A stretch of 64,000 nucleotides of DNA, taken from the NCBI GenBank assembly GCA_910589415.1, contig OU342634.1:20333144-20397143 (forward strand), read 5' to 3'. This document shows positions 8,437 through 49,200 of this stretch, in pieces (within the stretch, counting starts at the first letter, position 1; each line of letters starts with the position of its first letter). A model generated the notes under the pieces. The model was not told the origin of the DNA. It saw only the letters and a program-made list of their open reading frames with translations, and ran no database searches. The position numbers and the translations under genes are program-made. This stretch comes from Malachius bipustulatus (Eukaryota > Arthropoda > Insecta > Coleoptera > Melyridae).

Positions 8437-10995
8437 AATTCATACAGATAAACTACCCCAAAGCTGAGATATCCATCTTGGGTGATTTTAATGTACCATA
8501 ACATCAACTGTCTTAAATACTCAAACTTCACTGATGAAGAAGGTCGTGAAGCGGAATCGTTTGCGATCAGCTGTGGTTTTACCTTTTACCCAGCTCGTTG
8601 ATGAACCAACACGCATTCCCGAGAATTCGCTAGCCTGTTGGATCTGTTTTTGACCACGAACCCTCAATTATATACTATCACGGTGAAAGCCCCACTAGGT
8701 TCCTCAGACCATAAACTCGTCTCAACATCTTGTGTCCTACCAATTACTAGTGTTAAAGAAGCAAGTAAACCTCGTGTAGTCTGGCACTACAGATCTGCTA
8801 AATGGGAAGAACTCAGGGAATATTATCGAGATTTTCCATGGAGGAGTGTTTGTTTCGGCTCTAATGATCCATCTGTTTGTGCTAGGGAAGTTGCTCAAGT
8901 CATCCTAACAGGCATGGAAGCCTACATTCCCTTTTCTAAAGAACAGCCCTCAAACAGCAAACCTTGGTTCAACAAAAAATGCAAGGAAGCTGTCGCCTCC
9001 AAACAACTGGTTTTTCGCAAATAGCGAGAGAGCCCCGACGGCATAAATTATCCCAATTTCATCCTTGCTCGAAACAGATGCAAAGAAATAATAGATCAAA
9101 CCAAGGAAACTCACAACCAAAGAATTAGGAACAAACTTCTCTCCTGTCCTAACGGTTCGAAATCTTTTTGGTCTATAACTAAGGCAGTCAGCCAGAACTT
9201 CACCAGATCCACGATTCCACCACTTACACGGACAGATGGGACTATCGCATCCACGGCTACTGAGAAGGCAAACTTGTTGGCGGGAGTCTTTTCTTCATAC
9301 TCTTCCGTCGACTTTCATGGAAGAACTCCGCCAATGATCCCTTCCGTGGAGACCAAAATGTCAGACATTGTTTTCCGACAGCGTGTCATAAAGAGCATTA
9401 TGTTAGCCTTAGACTCAAACAAAGCTTCTGGGCCCGATGACGTACCTGTTATCGTACTAAAAAAATGCGCCACTGAGCTGTCATCTGTTTTCTGCCGACT
9501 TTTCAACTTGTCGTATAAAAAGGGAATATTTCCTTCTTGCTGGAAATGTGCACGGATTCAACCTATTCCCAAGAAAGGCAAAAATACTATACCAAATAAC
9601 TATCGACCAGTGGCACTTCTTTCAGTAATATCCAAGATTATGGAGAAAGCTATTAACCAACATCTTTTAAAATACTTGGAAGCAGCTAATATAATCAGCG
9701 ACCGCCAATACGGATTCCGTAAACAGAGGTCAACTGCGTGACCTCCTCACTTACGTCACCGAGCTGTGGAACGGCGCAATCGAACACCATGGGGAGTCTC
9801 GAGGGGTTGTGCTTGATATTTCTAGAGCTTTCGACCGTGTTTGGCATGGCGGACTGTTGGCAAAACTGCAGGCCTATGGCATGCCCGAGAAATTCTGCTT
9901 GTGGCTTGCGAGTTATCTCGGAGATCGTTCATTACAGGTGGCAGTCGATGGAGTTCTTTCTGAGACCTTTTCCATCAATGCCGGTGTGCCTCAGGGATCC
10001 ATTTTATCTCCGACTCTTTTTCTAATATTCATAAACGACTTGCTTGAAACTACAAAAAATCCAATATACAGTTTTGCCGACGACAGTACCCTCATATCTT
10101 CTTATACGTCAGATGCGCGAACATCTGCCATTGACGCACAGACTCGCAGGGAGCAAGAAGTTGCCATACTTAACAATGACTTGCAAGACATTCTAACTTG
10201 GGGCGATAGAAACCAAGTCCAATTCAATGCTGGAAAAACCCAAGCAGTCTTCTTCTCCAAAAAGACCAACGTTTTGGAGCCAGATATGATGATGGCGGGA
10301 CACTCTCTTACCCCAGCGTCATCTCTTCGTTTACTTGGAGTGAGCCTCGGAGCGAACATGTCTTGGCATGATCATGTTGCTGGTCTGGCGAAGAGTGCTT
10401 CTCAAAAACTTGGAACACTCTTCCGCACGAAGAAATTTTATACACCACAACAGCTTCTCCTCTTATACAAGGCTCAAATCCGACCATCCTTGGAATACTG
10501 CTCACATGTTTGGAGCTCAGCTCCCAAACATACGCTGAGACTACTCGACTCTATTCAGAAAAGAGCCATCCGCTTGATTGGGGACCCAGATTTGACAAAA
10601 AATTTAGACACTCTCGAACATCGAAGAAGAGTAGCTGACCTGAGTCTGTTTTACAGATATTTTAATGGAAAGTGTTCAAAAGACGTGGCCCGCTTGATCC
10701 CACCAAGAACAAAACCGGGCAGAAATACACGTCGAGCCGCAGACGCTCATCCGTATCAGGTTCAGCTCGTTACACCTCGTACCACCCTATTTCAGACTTC
10801 TTTTATGTATAGAACCGCATCACTTTGGAATAGCATTCCAAAGGGCGTGTTTCCCGAAGTATACAACCTACAGAGATCCAAGGCCAACGTGAATCGATAT
10901 CTCCGCTCATGCACCGCTCCCAGAGCGTCATAGGGATTTCCCTGCGGTGCATGTGCATTTTAAATAATAATAAAGAAATAATAATAATAAAATTA
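8437..10995 (+). mobile_element. decayed Jockey/CR1-group LINE (5'-truncated, one in-frame stop, at least two frameshifts)
   Basis: Translation gives the end of the endonuclease (ILGDFNV near 8480, then SSDHKLVS at about 8704) and a full reverse transcriptase. RT marks are the NNYRPVAL and YGFRKQRSTA region (9595-9741), the LDISRAFDRVWHG block (from 9812), GVPQGSILSP (about 9984-10013), the catalytic FADD (about 10073-10084) and a C-terminal region ending SCTAPRAS at 10933. Damage: frameshifts in the endonuclease near 8490-8520, a TAG at 9022-9024 inside an otherwise continuous frame (8638-9741), and a one-base shift at about 9738. From 9743 to 10933 the frame is clean, with its first Met at 9809. 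The 3' end is a short UTR with an A/T tail (AATAATAATAAAGAAATAAT). A second 3' fragment of the family lies at 62985-63270. This copy cannot be active. Confidence 0.9.
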
Positions 10996-16033: not shown

Positions 16034-16422
16034 TATATATACTTATTTTTAAAAACTATTTTCATATTAAATTACGAGTACCTACATTTCTAGTTACCTA
16101 TATGAATTATTGTTAGGTATATTTGTTTGTTAATCCCAAAATGAGAACAGTTTTTGTCCATCTGGGTCTCTCGATACTTATGCCCCTCCCAGGAAAATAT
16201 CTTGGATCTGCGCCTGACCTTTTTCATTCAAAAATTTCAAAAAATAGAAATGGCGGAGATGTAAGATTTTTTACATGAATGTTCAGAAATGAAGAAAACT
16301 AGAAATTTTTCTCTAAAAATTCAAATTTTCGATTTTCAAAACTCCCATGTAACTTTTTCGAATTTCAAGGTAAAATAGTGCAAAAAAGTGCATTTTTTTA
16401 AATCAGTTAGCCTGTGGCGAAC

Positions 16423-16443
16423 ATAGATAATATGGACAAAATA
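16423..16443. repeat. left target-site-like duplication of the hammerhead array
   Basis: Twenty-one bases starting ATAGATAATATGG recur at 18064-18084 with a single A/C difference, immediately outside the tandem array. Confidence 0.8.
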
Positions 16444-16487
16444 TTTTTATTTCATTGCATTCTGCTCACGGGATCCGTGATCTAAAC

Positions 16488-16576
16488 TGTGCTGTGTGTT
16501 GGTAGATACATTGTACTGAAGAGTCCCAAACAGGACGAAACACGTGTCTACAATTTCCGCCTCTGCTCACAGCACA
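16488..16576 (+). ncRNA. hammerhead ribozyme, unit 1 (core intact)
   Basis: The order is that of a type I hammerhead. Stem I 5' strand is ATTGTA (16510-16515), then the CTGAAGA core (16516-16522), stem II GTCC/GGAC (16523-16526 with 16533-16536) around loop CAAACA, the GAA core (16537-16539), a very short stem III in ACACGTGT (16540-16547) and C17 at 16548. The stem I 3' strand TACAAT (16549-16554) then pairs fully with the 5' strand. Cleavage is predicted after 16548. Stem I is extended by TGTGCTGTG/CACAGCACA (16488-16496 with 16568-16576) beyond an internal loop. Stem III is a palindrome with almost no loop, so efficient cutting may need a dimeric fold, as known for hammerheads with minimal stem III. 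Confidence 0.9.
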
Positions 16577-16833
16577 ACATAAATGGATGGCATGTTGTCT
16601 GACAACATGTCATTCATCTTTTGTCTAGCAACGCCTATAGTAGGGGCTTAACCTAATTCATGCACACCGGGGGGCACTGCACTCATTTTTGGCATGCATT
16701 ATGGCTGTCTGGGGTGTATCCTATGGCGCAAGCCTAACCCACCGTGCCTTTTTATTTTATTTTTATTTTTATTTCATTGCATTCTGCTCACGGGATCCGT
16801 GATCTAAACTGTGCTGTGTGTTGGTAGATATAC

Positions 16834-16878
16834 ATTGTACGGAAGAGTCCCAAACAGGACGAAACACGTGTCTACAAT
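16834..16878 (+). ncRNA. hammerhead ribozyme, unit 2 (core mutated, predicted inactive)
   Basis: Same fold as unit 1, but the first core strand reads CGGAAGA (16840-16846). The conserved U4 is replaced by G, a change expected to abolish or greatly lower cleavage. Stem II, the GAA strand, GTGTC and both stem I strands are intact. An extra AT precedes stem I (GATATACATT). Confidence 0.85.
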
Positions 16879-17157
16879 TTCCGCCTCTGCTCACAGCACA
16901 ACATAAATGGATGGCATGTTGTCTGACAACATGTCATTCATCTTTTGTCTAGCAACGCCTATAGTAGGGGCTTAACCTACTTCATGCACACCGGGGGGCA
17001 CTGCACTCATTTTTGGCATGCATTATGGCTGTCTGGGGTGTATCCTATGGCGCAAGCCTAACCCACCGTGCCTTTTTATTTTATTTTTATTTTTATTTCA
17101 TTGCATTCTGCTCACGGGATCCGTGATCTAAACTGTGCTGTGTGTTGGTAGATATAC

Positions 17158-17202
17158 ATTGTACGGAAGAGTCCCAAACAGGACGAAACACGTGTCTACA
17201 AT
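17158..17202 (+). ncRNA. hammerhead ribozyme, unit 3 (core mutated, predicted inactive)
   Basis: Identical to unit 2 in the core, with the same CGGAAGA at 17164-17170 and the same extra AT. The predicted cut position is after 17196. The shared mutation indicates that units 2 and 3 are sister copies. Confidence 0.85.
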
Positions 17203-17479
17203 TTCCGCCTCTGCTCACAGCACAACATAAATGGATGGCATGTTGTCTGACAACATGTCATTCATCTTTTGTCTAGCAACGCCTATAGTAGGGGCTTAAC
17301 CTAATTCATGCACACCGGGGGGCACTGCACTCATTTTTGGCATGCATTATGGCTGTCTGGGGTGTATCCTATGGCGCAAGCCTAACCCACCGTGCCTTTT
17401 TATTTTATTTTTATTTTTATTTCATTGCATTCTGCTCACGGGATCCGTGATCTAAACTGTGCTGTGTGTTGGTAGATAC

Positions 17480-17524
17480 ATTGTACTGAAGAGTCCCAAA
17501 CAGGACGAAACACGTGTCTACAAT
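17480..17524 (+). ncRNA. hammerhead ribozyme, unit 4 (core intact)
   Basis: CTGAAGA at 17486-17492, stem II GTCC/GGAC, GAA, ACACGTGT and C17 at 17518, followed by TACAAT pairing with ATTGTA. All conserved core positions are kept. Unit 4 shares small differences with unit 5 (CATAACATAA, and a 2-bp deletion in GCCTAGTAGG). Confidence 0.9.
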
Positions 17525-17799
17525 TTCCGCCTCTGCTCACAGCATAACATAAATGGATGGCATGTTGTCTGACAACATGTCATTCATCTTTTGTCTAGCA
17601 ACGCCTAGTAGGGGCTTAACCTACTTCATGCACACCGGGGGGCACTGCACTCATTTTTGGCATGCATTATGGCTGTCTGGGGTGTATCCTATGGCGCAAG
17701 CCTAACCCACCGTGCCTTTTTATTTTATTTTTATTTTTATTTCATTGCATTCTGCTCACGGGATCCGTGATCTAAACTGTGCTGTGTGTTGGTAGATAC

Positions 17800-17844
17800 A
17801 TTGTACTGAAGAGTCCCAAACAGGACGAAACACGTGTCTACAAT
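17800..17844 (+). ncRNA. hammerhead ribozyme, unit 5 (core intact)
   Basis: Same intact fold as unit 4, with CTGAAGA at 17806-17812 and cleavage predicted after 17838. Confidence 0.9.
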
Positions 17845-18063
17845 TTCCGCCTCTGCTCACAGCATAACATAAATGGATGGCATGTTGTCTGACAACATGT
17901 CATTCATCTTTTGTCTAGCAACGCCTAGTAGGGGCTTAACCTACTTCATGCACACCGGGGGGCACTGCACTCATTTTTGGCATGCATTATGGCTGTCTGG
18001 GGTGTATCCTATGGCGCAAGCCTAACCCACCGTGCCTTTTTATTTTATTTTTATTTTTATTTC

Positions 18064-18084
18064 ATAGATAATATGGCCAAAATA
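18064..18084. repeat. right target-site-like duplication of the hammerhead array
   Basis: Direct repeat partner of 16423-16443, with one mismatch. Confidence 0.8.
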
Positions 18085-35060: not shown

Positions 35061-36834
35061 CAGGGTGTTAAGAAAATGACGGATAAACTCTTCAGTACAT
35101 TGTAGGGGACACTCAATAAAGTACGGGAAAAATAATTTTAAAAAATCCAGAGCTACATTTTAAAAGATATAAGCAAAATATTGAACAATAAATTCGGCAA
35201 CGTTGAACACAATAACTGCTGGTATATTTTTGGTATTGTACTTTTTAATTTTATATGATTTGTGTTGCCCCTCGTAAAAAATAACATGTCGGATGGCTGT
35301 GTTTAAAAATAACATGTTTAAGCTGTGGAGTCCGTAAAAACTTCTACAATGTATGTCTTCATAGTAAATAAACAAATAACAAAATGTACTAAAATAGGTT
35401 ACAAAAACTGCTCAAAATTTTGTCCTTGCACATTTAAACAAAGTTCAGTTCGCCGCACAATGTTGTTCTGTACTTGTTCAAGCATTGGGGGCGTCACGGT
35501 TGCAAAAGCATCTCGAATTTTGTTTATAAGATCTTGTTCATTTTGAACTGGAGTCCTATAAACAAGGGATTTGATGTGACCCCACAGAAAAAAATATCGA
35601 GCGGGGTAAGATCTGGGGATCTTGGTGGCCATGGTATTGGACCATTTCGACCTATCCACTGTCCGGGAAATTCGTCATTTAGCCAATTTCTTACTAGAAT
35701 AGCAAAATGAGCTGGGGCTCCGTCTAACTCTAATTGGATCCACATGTTCTGTATTGCCGCCAGGGGAAGATCGTTCAGCCGTTCCTGCAGTTCATTTGTT
35801 AAAAATTCAAAAAAATTATTTCCATTTAACCTGTCCGGCAATATGACTGGTCCTATTAGCTGCCTACCCAGAATTCCTGCCCACACATTTACCCCAAATC
35901 GTTGTTGATGGTAATGCTCAACAGCTATATACGGATTTTCTGAAGAATAATAGTGGTTATTATGCTGATTGAAAAATCCATCCCTTGAAAAATTCGCCTC
36001 ATCGGTCCACAAAATATGGGACGTAAATGTCGGGTTCCTAGCCACTTGTTGCAACAACCAATTGCAGTAATTTACCCGCAGTTGGAAATCATTTTCTAAC
36101 AGAGCTTGCACCTTAGTGTAATGATAAGGGTGATAGCCTTCACCAACAAGAAATGTATTAACAGTTACATGTGAACAATTTAGTTCAGCTGCAATACTTC
36201 TGGTACTTCGTGTGGGATCTTCTTCTAAAAGTTCCAAAACTTGATTTTCCATTTGGGGCGTTAGAATAAGACGAGGACGACCGCGATCTTGACCTGTAGC
36301 TGGCACAAGATTTCCTGTAGAAAACATTCGGTCCTCTAGTCTTCTAAACGCAAAGCTTGTAACGCGTTTTGGCGGCATTCGCCCAAAATAAACGCCATAA
36401 TATCAGCATATTCTCGATTTGAAAACATTTTTTGTAATTAAAGTCAAATAGTTTGATTTGATTATTAAATTTTATTCAAAATTTTACGTCTAATTTCTAA
36501 CAATGTAGGTAGTCAATGTATCAAAACCGTTGTTGCCAAATGCTTTTTTCAGCATCTTGGAAAAGAAAAAAAAATCTTATTAAATTTTCCAACAAGCCAG
36601 TAATACATCTTAAGCAATTTTTTAAATTGATAATGATTAAAGTACCCTTTTTATATCTGTAAAATAATCTAGTTTTTGGAAATACCTAAAAACAAAGATA
36701 GTAAAATGTTAACTTTGGCATTTTTTATCTCACCAAATTGAAGACCAGAATTTTTTAAGTTATTTTTCCCGTACTCTACTGAGTGTCCCCTACAATGTAC
36801 TGAAGAGTTTATCCGTCATTTTCTTAACACCCTG
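35061..36834 (-). mobile_element. full-length mariner-like transposon, about 75-bp terminal inverted repeats, TA duplication
   Basis: The ends are CAGGGTGTTAAGAAAATGAC and its complement, and the repeat pairs for about 75 bp, through GTAGGGGACACTCAATAAAG on the left. TA lies at 35059-35060 and 36835-36836, the standard mariner target duplication. The transposase gene is on the minus strand (36378 to 35399) and carries a frameshift. At 1774 bp the element has the length of an autonomous copy. Confidence 0.92.
35399..36378 (-). pseudogene. mariner/Tc1-type transposase, one frameshift
   Basis: Translation starts at MPPKRVTSFAF (36378). A helix-turn-helix region follows (STRSIAAELNCSHVTVN, about residues 58-75). 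The catalytic residues lie in LWTDEANF, LDGAPAHF and SPDLTPLD. By my count 41 residues lie between the second and third aspartates, so the triad reads DD41D rather than the DD34D of classical mariner. The frame breaks at about 35560-35600. The first frame ends at 35524 in unrelated residues, while FFLWGHIKSLVYRTPV and the C-terminal 60 or so residues continue in the other frame to 35399. One small indel explains this. The enzyme would cut and paste its host element at TA sites. This copy is probably inactive. Confidence 0.9.
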
Positions 36835-42819: not shown

Positions 42820-43144
42820 GCGTCCTACGGCGCCCAAATGACTGTGAGCGCGCAGGCTGATGCGTTCTGGGCTTGTTGTTCTTGCAAAGAGTAGTTTTTA
42901 TTGTTTTACTTGAAAAGTAATTAATAAACAAAAAAATATTGGGAGGCGAAAAAGTTTTATTTTTACCGATCTGAAAAAAACTGCGTCCTACGGCGCCCAA
43001 ATGACTGTGAGCGCGCAGGCTGATGCGTTCTGGGCTTGTTGTTCTTGCAAAAAGTAGTTTTTATTGTTTTACTTGAAAAGTAATTAATAAACAAAAAAAT
43101 ATTGGGAGGCGAAAAAGTTGTATTTTTACCGATCTGAAAAAAAA
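42820..43144 (+). repeat. 163-bp tandem duplication
   Basis: GCGTCCTACGGCGCCCAAAT begins at 42820 and again at 42983. Both copies run on through TTACTTGAAAAGTAATTAAT and the GATCTGAAAAAAA end with only a few differences. The near-identity indicates a recent duplication. Confidence 0.9.
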
Positions 43145-45926: not shown

Positions 45927-46231
45927 GTTAGTATCTAAACTTTCGAAATTTCTGAAATTGTAATTTAGATCCATCGTAACTAAATGAAACTGTTTTATTA
46001 AAAAATAAACAGTTTTACGGAGGTCCCGGTAATTGCAGTTTATTCTCACCTGTATATTTTGGACTAGATCAGTTAGTGATCAGTAGTCTTAATTTCCCTC
46101 AAAAACAGGTTATGTTTAGAAAGTCTCAGTTTTTAGATTCACAAGTTTTTTTTCTCTAATTATTGTTATTAACAGTGTTATTCACCGCAATATTGAACAA
46201 AAATTAAGAACTTTCCATCTTTTTCAGCAAA

Positions 46232-49200
46232 ATGAAGCAAATAGTAACGAATCAAACTGTCAAAATCCCGAAAGGGATCACAGTCACAGCGAAGTCTCGA
46301 CTGATTACTGTTAAAGGACCCCGTGGAGTCCTGAAGAGGTCGTTCAAACATCTAGCCTTGGATATCCGTATGGTGAACCCAAGGATCTTGAAAGTAGAAA
46401 AATGGTTTGGAACCAAGAAGGAACTTGCATCCGTTCGCACAGTTTGTTCTCACGTCGAAAACATGTTGAAAGGTGTAACCAAGGGTTATCAATATAAAAT
46501 GCGAGCAGTGTACGCCCATTTCCCTATTAACTGTGTAACAACTGAGAACGATAGCGTTATTGAAATTAGGAACTTCCTGGGAGAAAAATACATCAGGCGG
46601 TAAGAATGGCTTCTGGTTTCTTTTAGTACTTAGATAATATTAGTATGTGAGGAAACATTTGCTCTGTGCTATTTAATTTAGAACTAGCTTCCTATCTGTT
46701 GGAGCTAATGTATGAGACAATAATTCAGTAAGTCTGTTTTTTTTTTCTTGTGTGAATAGGTATACTTTATTTTTTATTTAGATGGATTCCACCAAGTCAA
46801 AATTCTAGGGGAACGATTGGCAACAAGACTGATTAGGTTGGTTATGGTGATAGTTGTTACTAAAATAATCACTGGAATAGTTACTAAATTAATTTAGGTT
46901 ATGTCCATTAGTTGAAATGTCATTTTATTTCAAAATTTCAATTAAAAAAAAAACTATAAACTCAATTTTTAGAAGTAAATTGGAAAATTTTAGAGGCTTG
47001 TAGGTGTAAGTACCTTAGCTATTTACTCTTATAAATCTTATGTATGTAGGATTAGACCGATTCCTTCTTAGTTTTATGTAAAAATGTTGAAAATAGAAGA
47101 AAATCTATTATTGATAAATAGAAGAGGTACTTACATTATTTAATCATTTTTTAAGAATTTTTCAAGGAATCTGATTAAACAGTATTTTTGCTTAATCTGG
47201 AGAAACATGTTTCAATCGCTATCGTTACATTTGATGATTCCTTCTTTTCTTTCTTTTGAAATAAATTTACCTGCCTGAGCATTTTAATAATTTTGAATTT
47301 GATAATTTGGTTTGTTAATTTGACAACTTCAACTTTTCAGTTCCTTCGCGTTTCGCTGTGACTAGAGTGCCGACTCAGGGAGTAGACCTAGTTTTCGCAA
47401 AACGTCATTGGATATAGTTCAATCCAAGCAACAGTTAAATTTGTCCTCAAAAAACGAATAACTACTAAAAAAGGACTATTTTCAGAGAAAATAAAGTAAT
47501 TTGAAGTTTTTAATTTGCGTTTTATAACAGTGGAACTTACAACAAGGAAACATGTTTTGCAGGTGACGTCATAGCCTACACCCGAATTGGGGAATGTTGC
47601 CGTTACTTTAGTCACAACGTAAATTTTTTGCCAAGGTCGAGAAAACAGGCTACCATCCGACAATATGAAAATTACTGTTTAAAGATTGCACAGGGTACCA
47701 ACTTGACAGCTGTTTGACAAGTCCATCTAAATAAAAAATAGACTTTAAGTAGGGGAGAAATGGATAAATTCTGTTCTGACAGGGGGCACATTCGGATATT
47801 TAAAATTTGGTAATGTTGCTGATTGACACCCTGAGTTCCCCTCCACTAGCCCCAATCCGCTTTCTGTTCTCCGGTTGCACTGAAATCCTCTCAGCGTTGC
47901 CACATGTAATCCGTTCTACTATGTTCTCCACACAATAATGTCAGTTATGTGTTTCTCTCTCATGAGTTCGCTTCGCTCCCCAACCGGTTTCACCAGCCAA
48001 TTATCATAGACACCTAAGTCTGGTCAACCTTATTACGAAAATCGTATTTTTATTATGTTGGTTAGTACTTTGTGTAGAAAAGAAATTTTCAAAAACTTGT
48101 TTTAATTGAAAAAATGTCTGTTTAAACACATACGTAAACTTACTATTTTTCAAGAACCTAAGTCTAGAAACAAACCTTACCCTGATTTTGTTGCACAATT
48201 TTTACTGTTTGGTTATAATAAGTTGGGGCAGATTCGGGTTCAGACTAATAAAATACTTATGCTTGTATATATATCACACTGAAATTTTATGAATCCTCTG
48301 TATACAGGGGTGATTCACACCTTATGACTTTCCTTCTAAGAGGATAGAGGATGGGGTCCCTAAAAGTAGACTTCTTGTGCCTAAAAGTAATTCAAAGAGC
48401 TGTATGTTTTTTTACTAGAAGAAAATTTCCAATTTTTAGTGATTTGGTGAACATATTCGAACTGCTGGTTTTATTTTTTTACACACCTGTTGATGAAACA
48501 AAGGAATTAATAATTAAAGGGCCCAGTAGAAAAACAATGAGCTTTACATTTTGTTTTTCTCAATTTTTATAAAAATGAAACCTCGAACTTTTTGGTCTTT
48601 TCAATTGTTAACAATAAGCTTAAGATTAACAAGACAACAATAGTCATTTTTTCATTATTGACAACAATAATACCTTGTCAATCATTTTGTCATTTCATCT
48701 ACCAATTTCCAAATTATTATGTGTCCCTAGTCCTAGTACCAAATCAAAAATATTCACGTTGGTGGGGCATTGCAACAGCATGTCCAAAATTTTCTTTCAT
48801 TCCGGATTTGGAGTTTAAATAAGTCAATGCATTCAATTTCATCCCTGTAGTTTTTTTTTTTTTTTTTTTTTTCTGTAGAAATGCCTTTTCTGGCACATTC
48901 TGAGCTTACCTACCCCTGAAATGAAAGTCACAAGTTCATGAATAATGAATATAAAAATAGGCTGTCCCAAATCCCTGAATAACTATTCATAGTTTTCCCG
49001 CGTGATAGGGGATATAAAAAAAAAAGAATTTTCTATTAAAAATATGCCTGAAAATGCTTAGTTTTCTAGATAAAGGATGTAAAGTAAAAAAAGTTTTTTT
49101 TATTAATATCTCAAAGATCCTTTTGCCAATTTTGGTGAAATTTGGCAGTGCTGTTCGTTGTGATAAAGACGCAAAGTTAGCACTAACTATACTTATAAGA

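Follow-up and report, generated by a model that had tools for sequence, protein, structure and literature searches.

Retrozymes and Penelope-like elements

Non-LTR retrozymes have been reported from many invertebrates, insects included, as ~170-400-bp tandem repeats with a canonical type I hammerhead ribozyme, a GC content below 50% and no open reading frame (ORF), dispersed in short arrays bordered by duplications of more than 4 bp (PMC7229834). Penelope-like elements are considered a strong candidate partner in that account, without direct evidence (Cervera and de la Pena 2020; PMC7229834), and according to a 2020 review, no conserved motif in the repeats allows the partner to be deduced (PMC7761336). 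Plant LTR retrozymes are likewise non-autonomous, carry hammerheads and are thought to spread via circular RNA, but their ribozymes are of type III and reside in LTRs, they possess a PBS and a PPT, and their target duplications are 4 bp long (PMC4918200; PMC7761336); the family analyzed here does not belong to this class, with ribozymes of type I according to Rfam and duplications of 11-17 bp. The pDo500 repeat of Dolichopoda cave crickets is also an insect tandem repeat with a hammerhead but has been described as a satellite (PMC2837043), whereas the present family consists of short dispersed insertions with target duplications.

The purified Penelope-like protein of Anolis cuts and extends both DNA strands, prefers AT-rich DNA and has been modelled as a dimer; it initiates reverse transcription at two neighboring positions within the RNA, which explains the genomic "tail". 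The main start is located at 111-118 nt of the ORF, and the hammerhead cut is at 26 (PMC11167929). In the rotifer A. vaga, Penelope copies show inverted pLTRs, one of which bears a 31-bp tail, and duplications of 8-10 bp (PMC3846280).

The observations presented below, on a hammerhead-bearing repeat from the beetle Malachius bipustulatus, are best explained, with a probability that we put at about two in three, by a non-LTR retrozyme that is copied from an RNA circle, with both nicked strands of the target serving as primers for a Penelope-type enzyme supplied in trans.

The array in the window

The analyzed window is a stretch of 64,000 nucleotides (contig OU342634.1, positions 20,333,144 to 20,397,143 of the forward strand). 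Tandem Repeats Finder (TRF) identifies a single array of the retrozyme kind in it, at 16442-18065, with a period of 324, 5.0 copies and 99% matches, and a covariance-model search, as proposed in the initial annotation, detects Rfam RF00163 (Hammerhead_1, type I) in each of the five units on the plus strand, with scores of 52.4-58.7 bits. At the Rfam gathering threshold, cmscan finds no other family in the 64-kb window. The elements of the array are as follows.

16442..18065, plus strand: retrozyme array, 5.04 units of 320-324 bp, the main (229-type, see below) arm of the insertion
16510..16554, plus strand: type I hammerhead of unit 1, canonical core CTGAAGA; RF00163 58.7 bits, E 7.5e-13; predicted cut after 16548
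16834..16878, plus strand: type I hammerhead of unit 2, changed core CGGAAGA; RF00163 52.4 bits, E 9.1e-11; predicted cut after 16872
17158..17202, plus strand: type I hammerhead of unit 3, changed core CGGAAGA; RF00163 52.4 bits, E 9.1e-11; predicted cut after 17196
17480..17524, plus strand: type I hammerhead of unit 4, canonical core CTGAAGA; RF00163 58.7 bits, E 7.5e-13; predicted cut after 17518
17800..17844, plus strand: type I hammerhead of unit 5, canonical core CTGAAGA; RF00163 58.7 bits, E 7.5e-13; predicted cut after 17838

These results bear out the five-unit, same-strand hammerhead array of the initial annotation, and the strands of stem I (ATTGTA/TACAAT) and stem II (GTCC/GGAC) given there are found in the sequence. 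The hammerheads were further described as complete in every unit, which fits only units 1, 4 and 5 because units 2 and 3 carry a T-to-G change inside the catalytic core (CGGAAGA instead of CTGAAGA), at a position that we take to be U4 in hammerhead numbering. The cuts proposed after 16548, 17518 and 17838 agree with the sequence, and two more are expected, after 16872 and 17196, so that the uniform monomer of about 322 nt is replaced by predicted lengths of 324, 324, 322 and 320 nt. The window array is a mixture of two unit types.

The majority unit of the family is 320 nt long with a GC content of 0.45, and stop codons occur in each of its three forward frames, none of which contains a long ORF. 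The type I hammerhead in five of five window units (two of the five with changed cores), the unit length of 320-324 bp and the GC content place the family with the metazoan non-LTR retrozymes. With regard to whether the family had been described, the class is known (PMC7229834), and no account of this particular family was found in the openly licensed PMC literature.

Dispersed copies in the genome

In a search of the M. bipustulatus genome (544 Mb, 52 contigs) with a 656-bp query, of the kind that had been proposed to find other arrays, 40 of the 1123 candidates were scored and 173 matches obtained; those listed cluster into 40 loci, the window included, a sample biased to close and long copies. 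The family is dispersed in the host genome. In the 39 loci outside the window, there are 230 hammerhead matches (143 + 87), and most units score 58.7 bits. Every locus was mapped by local alignment to a reference unit of 324 nt, with position 1 set at the first base past the ribozyme cut, a procedure that misses arms of a few bases, three of which were spotted by eye. Three loci (L031, L032 and L033) are more divergent copies with shorter units, in which the hammerheads are spaced by 312, 314 and 316-317 nt, respectively; the first two have both of the edge types described below and the third has one. In another locus (L017:2111-2482), the mapped plus-strand arm contains a gap with array on either side, which may be a later insertion.

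Inverted arms and fixed edges

At 26 of the 40 loci, the alignment reveals two arms arranged as a head-to-head inverted pair, and the other 14 are called one-armed. The outer edges, which correspond to the 3' end of the RNA, fall within two narrow intervals of the unit in all 66 arms, namely, positions 77-84 (29 arms) and 220-234 (37 arms). The equivalent positions in the first full unit of the window are as follows.

16625..16632, plus strand: counterpart of the "79" edge, the outer end of 29 of the 66 arms (unit positions 77-84)
16768..16782, plus strand: counterpart of the "229" edge, the outer end of 37 of the 66 arms (unit positions 220-234)

Every one of the 26 two-armed loci has one edge of each type, ~79 nt and ~229 nt downstream of the ribozyme cut. 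By our own arithmetic, the chance of 26 mixed pairs out of 26 is about 1e-8 if each arm chose its edge independently, because independent arms at the observed frequencies would give mixed pairs about half the time. Among the 14 one-armed loci, 11 have a 229-type edge and 3 a 79-type edge, and at three of these loci (the window, L045 and L046), inspection by eye of the stretch from the array to the duplication reveals a short arm of the type that appeared to be absent. The inverted twin arrays and the two fixed edges, along with the core change in two of the five ribozymes, had been overlooked in the initial annotation.

The inner ends of the arms show a different pattern: they are scattered across the unit, and two of the 66 lie no more than 8 nt from the cut, where 3.3 would be expected. 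A template that ends at the hammerhead cut was considered and rejected, given that no outer edge lies there and the inner ends do not pile up at that position. Sixty-one of the 66 arms are longer than one unit, with a maximum of 13.6 units. The two start sites show no sequence similarity beyond chance (38% of random pairs score as high), a point against the explanation favored here. The circular majority unit is predicted to fold at -90.6 kcal/mol (mononucleotide shuffles: -74.1, sd 4.9); in this structure, neither start site is paired, and between them lies a stretch of ~150 nt that folds on its own.

The centre junctions of the inverted pairs are overlaps or short fillers, and at two loci (L010 and L020) they lie on a palindromic stretch of the unit. 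Such centres would fit an inverted arm that arose by self-priming, through fold-back or use of an antisense template, rather than by priming from the second target strand, and the head-to-head inverted repeats of A. vaga have been interpreted in this way by the authors who described them (PMC3846280). Self-priming nevertheless leaves unexplained why the far end of the second arm coincides with the other fixed start, beside an exact target duplication, in all 26 pairs, and why the centres are spread over the unit and joined through short fillers, so we consider it very unlikely as the source of the second arm. The paired edges speak for priming of both arms by the target, as proposed above.

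Target sites and duplications

Exact target duplications of 11-17 bp are present at 34 of the 40 loci, compared to one among 386 mispaired flanks (that one of 11 bp, and none longer). A wider search raises the number to 35 of 40, with 29 of those at 12-13 bp; even in this search, no duplication appears at L015, L021, L027 or L029, and the one at L040 is only 10 bp long, exceptions that count against the preferred explanation. Taken with the dispersal of the loci, the duplications uphold the proposal that the window array was inserted as a mobile unit rather than being a drifting satellite. The relevant features of the window are listed below.

16422..16435: left copy of the target duplication CATAGATAATATGG, 14 bp, an exact match to the right copy
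16436..16441, minus strand: putative remnant of an inverted 79-type arm, ACAAAA (GACAAAA with the preceding G), proposed by comparison with loci such as L031, L036 and L037
18063..18076: right copy of the target duplication, the first 3 bp of which (CAT) overlap the end of the array

The near-identical 21-bp repeat that had been noted around the array is better interpreted as this exact 14-bp duplication, with the left copy followed by 6-7 nt of an inverted arm. If the window locus is considered alone, a 22-bp duplication with one mismatch is a lesser reading; the 14-bp version is preferred because the other duplicated loci have 10-17 bp and because the extra letters match the start of a 79-type arm. 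Judging from the sequence, the window copy may be read as an insertion of the same kind with a second arm of merely ~7 nt.

The joined host sites, aligned for 25 two-arm loci (L042, with its 17-bp duplication, was dropped), define a palindromic motif that consists of A-R-C, about 12 AT-rich bases and G-Y-T. At least five of the six motif positions are matched at 11 of 35 sites, compared to 1.2% of other host positions; the corresponding p value of 3e-13 is partly circular in that the 35 scored loci include the 25 from which the motif was derived, and the mirror symmetry of its two halves is not imposed by the derivation. Across the 35 loci, the core of the target is 82% AT, compared to 63% in the flanks. 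The symmetry of the target suggests a dimeric enzyme that cuts both strands with a stagger of 12-13 bp.

The nature of the enzyme

A LINE-type machinery could, in principle, move the retrozyme, and the inverted arms would then result from twin priming, which has been described for L1, or from template jumps. The 11-17-bp duplications are within the LINE range, a LINE-like reverse transcriptase is present in the window, and the 15-bp duplications of Nematostella retrozyme repeats have been likened to those of LINEs (PMC4918200). We consider this explanation unlikely, given that twin priming predicts an internal, variable start of the inverted arm whereas the edges are fixed and opposite in 26 of 26 pairs, that the target is symmetric, and that the ability to cut and extend both strands has been reported for the Penelope protein but for neither R2Bm nor human LINE-1 (PMC11167929).

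The LINE-like element in the window (8605-10933, plus strand) contains two overlapping frames, 9025-9741 and 9695-10933, that match Pfam RVT_1 and apparently represent one reverse transcriptase broken by a frameshift.

The architecture of the insertions points instead to a putative Penelope-type partner acting in trans. The family shares with Penelope-like elements the head-to-head inversion, the short duplications in AT-rich DNA and, past a hammerhead, two internal starts separated by a tail (PMC11167929; PMC3846280); inverted pairs with duplications are present, and the two start sites, with the tail being optional, account for 66 of 66 arms. Our arithmetic on the published Anolis coordinates places the start of that element ~85-92 nt past the cut, compared to 77-84 nt in the retrozyme (PMC11167929). 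Several differences count against this explanation: the spacing between the starts is ~150 nt in the retrozyme and, as judged from tail length, 30-40 nt in Anolis (PMC11167929), the duplications are 11-17 bp compared to 8-10 bp in A. vaga (PMC3846280), each retrozyme start is tied to one side whereas the Anolis starts are alike on both strands, and the Anolis element inserts without need of a hammerhead, with uncut RNA as the main substrate (PMC11167929).

Penelope-like elements also differ in encoding an ORF and in having a minimal hammerhead, whereas the retrozyme has no ORF and its hammerhead is canonical (PMC11167929; PMC3846280). No ORF with the reverse transcriptase and GIY-YIG domains of an autonomous Penelope-like element is found in the three forward frames of the retrozyme unit, so the family is classified, at most, as moved by a Penelope-like element and not as one. 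A regular-expression scan of 254,046 bases for Penelope-type reverse-transcriptase motifs gave no match, which is weak evidence given that the scan missed the LINE of the window as well.

Unit similarity and the template

Comparison of 170 full units from 39 of the 40 loci (L027 contributed none) gives mean distances of 1.24 for units of one arm, 1.15 for units of opposite arms at the same locus and 6.72 for units of different loci; 48%, 51% and 2.7% of these pairs, respectively, are identical. Each arm contains at least one full unit at 17 of the 26 two-arm loci; for these 17 (the other nine are excluded), the cross-arm distance is 1.52, compared to 6.61 when arms are shuffled between loci, and none of 5000 permutations is as low. 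The nearest arm is the partner arm in 21 of 34 cases, with 15 ties, which counts against the preferred explanation. Among the 68 variable columns at the 17 loci that have at least four units, 55 carry variants private to a single unit. In general, then, the two arms at a locus derive from repeated copying of one monomer sequence, and these data fit equally a single circle, sister circles from the same donor or a homogeneous multimer.

The last of these options implies the same retrozyme and the same priming from both strands, but the template would be a linear multimer, transcribed from a homogeneous donor array and left uncut. Such arrays are homogeneous, so a multimer would yield identical units too, and the finding noted above that uncut RNA is the main substrate in Anolis is compatible with it (PMC11167929). 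The mixed units of the window and the variants common to non-adjacent units in three other loci (L011, L013 and L030) also fit a copied heterogeneous array better than one circle and count against the latter because a single circle does not predict them. The linear template appears unlikely all the same, given that arms of up to 13.6 units would require many canonical hammerheads, at 58.7 bits in most units, to remain uncut, and that abundant circular RNAs were detected for this class of animal retrozymes (PMC7229834).

The shared non-adjacent variants in these three loci suggest, in addition, some duplication or conversion of unit blocks, and hammerhead-bearing satellites are known from cave crickets (PMC2837043), so a satellite spread and homogenized at the DNA level by recombination or conversion has to be weighed. 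The exact target duplications at 34 of 40 loci, the two fixed edges and the predominance of private variants make such an origin extremely improbable, and a simple satellite is rejected in view of the dispersed loci, exact duplications and fixed edges. No long satellite array, which would have spoken against a mobile unit, is present among the 40 loci, where the longest arm is the one of 13.6 units.

The ribozyme region carries fewer locus-level changes than the rest of the unit (6 over 47 sites compared to 104 over 273), and private changes are not rarer there. The counts of variants present in at least two loci (1 in the ribozyme, 21 elsewhere) and of single-unit variants (9 and 50) give a Fisher p of 0.27, so that purifying selection on the ribozyme is suggestive only, and its lack of significance is a further point against the preferred explanation.

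A model of retrozyme insertion

Under the favored explanation, copying from an RNA circle by a Penelope-type enzyme, tandem transcripts of this non-coding ~320-nt retroelement would be cut into monomers by the type I hammerhead, and the monomers would close into circles. A Penelope-type endonuclease/reverse transcriptase, acting in trans, would nick both strands of an AT-rich palindrome with a stagger of ~12-13 bp, and each free 3' end would prime synthesis within the circle from a position of its own, ~79 nt beyond the hammerhead cut in one case and ~229 nt in the other. Several rounds of the circle would be copied before the two cDNAs join head to head, and the product would consist of inverted arrays of near-identical units bounded by short target duplications.

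A more speculative extension, to which we give somewhat less than even odds, is that the insertions are fossils of a two-sided rolling-circle reverse transcription, in which a dimeric enzyme of Penelope type would work on one circle, with one subunit for each nicked strand and its start site. The retrozyme would then be parasitic on Penelope, and the start sites would be a recognized signal.

The edges of the insertions provide a signature, two fixed starts, one per side, a symmetric AT-rich target and one-monomer arrays, that makes both the partner enzyme and the role of RNA circles as the template testable. The metazoan non-LTR retrozymes described previously are direct tandem copies, and the word "inverted" does not occur in the main text of that report (PMC7229834), whereas the present family has inverted pairs, two fixed edges and a palindromic target. 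We found none of these three features described for animal retrozymes in the openly licensed PMC literature; within that literature, the class is already known and the inverted twin arrays with paired fixed edges appear to be new.

Other features of the window

Among the 120 matches listed out of 5008, the RpL9 protein encoded in the window is closest to insect proteins, with identities of 93% to Tenebrio molitor and to one further record, 91% to Dendroctonus and Coccinella, 94% to Popillia (over 85% of the length) and 90% to the wasp Prorops nasuta. The window also contains a frame of 292 amino acids (35524-36402, minus strand) that resembles Tc/mariner transposases, with DDE_3 and HTH matches below the Pfam curated cut-offs. 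A 163-bp tandem duplication with two copies that are 98% identical (TRF) is located at 42820-43143. An exon of the host ribosomal protein L9 gene (RpL9) is located at 46208-46603 on the plus strand and matches Pfam Ribosomal_L6.
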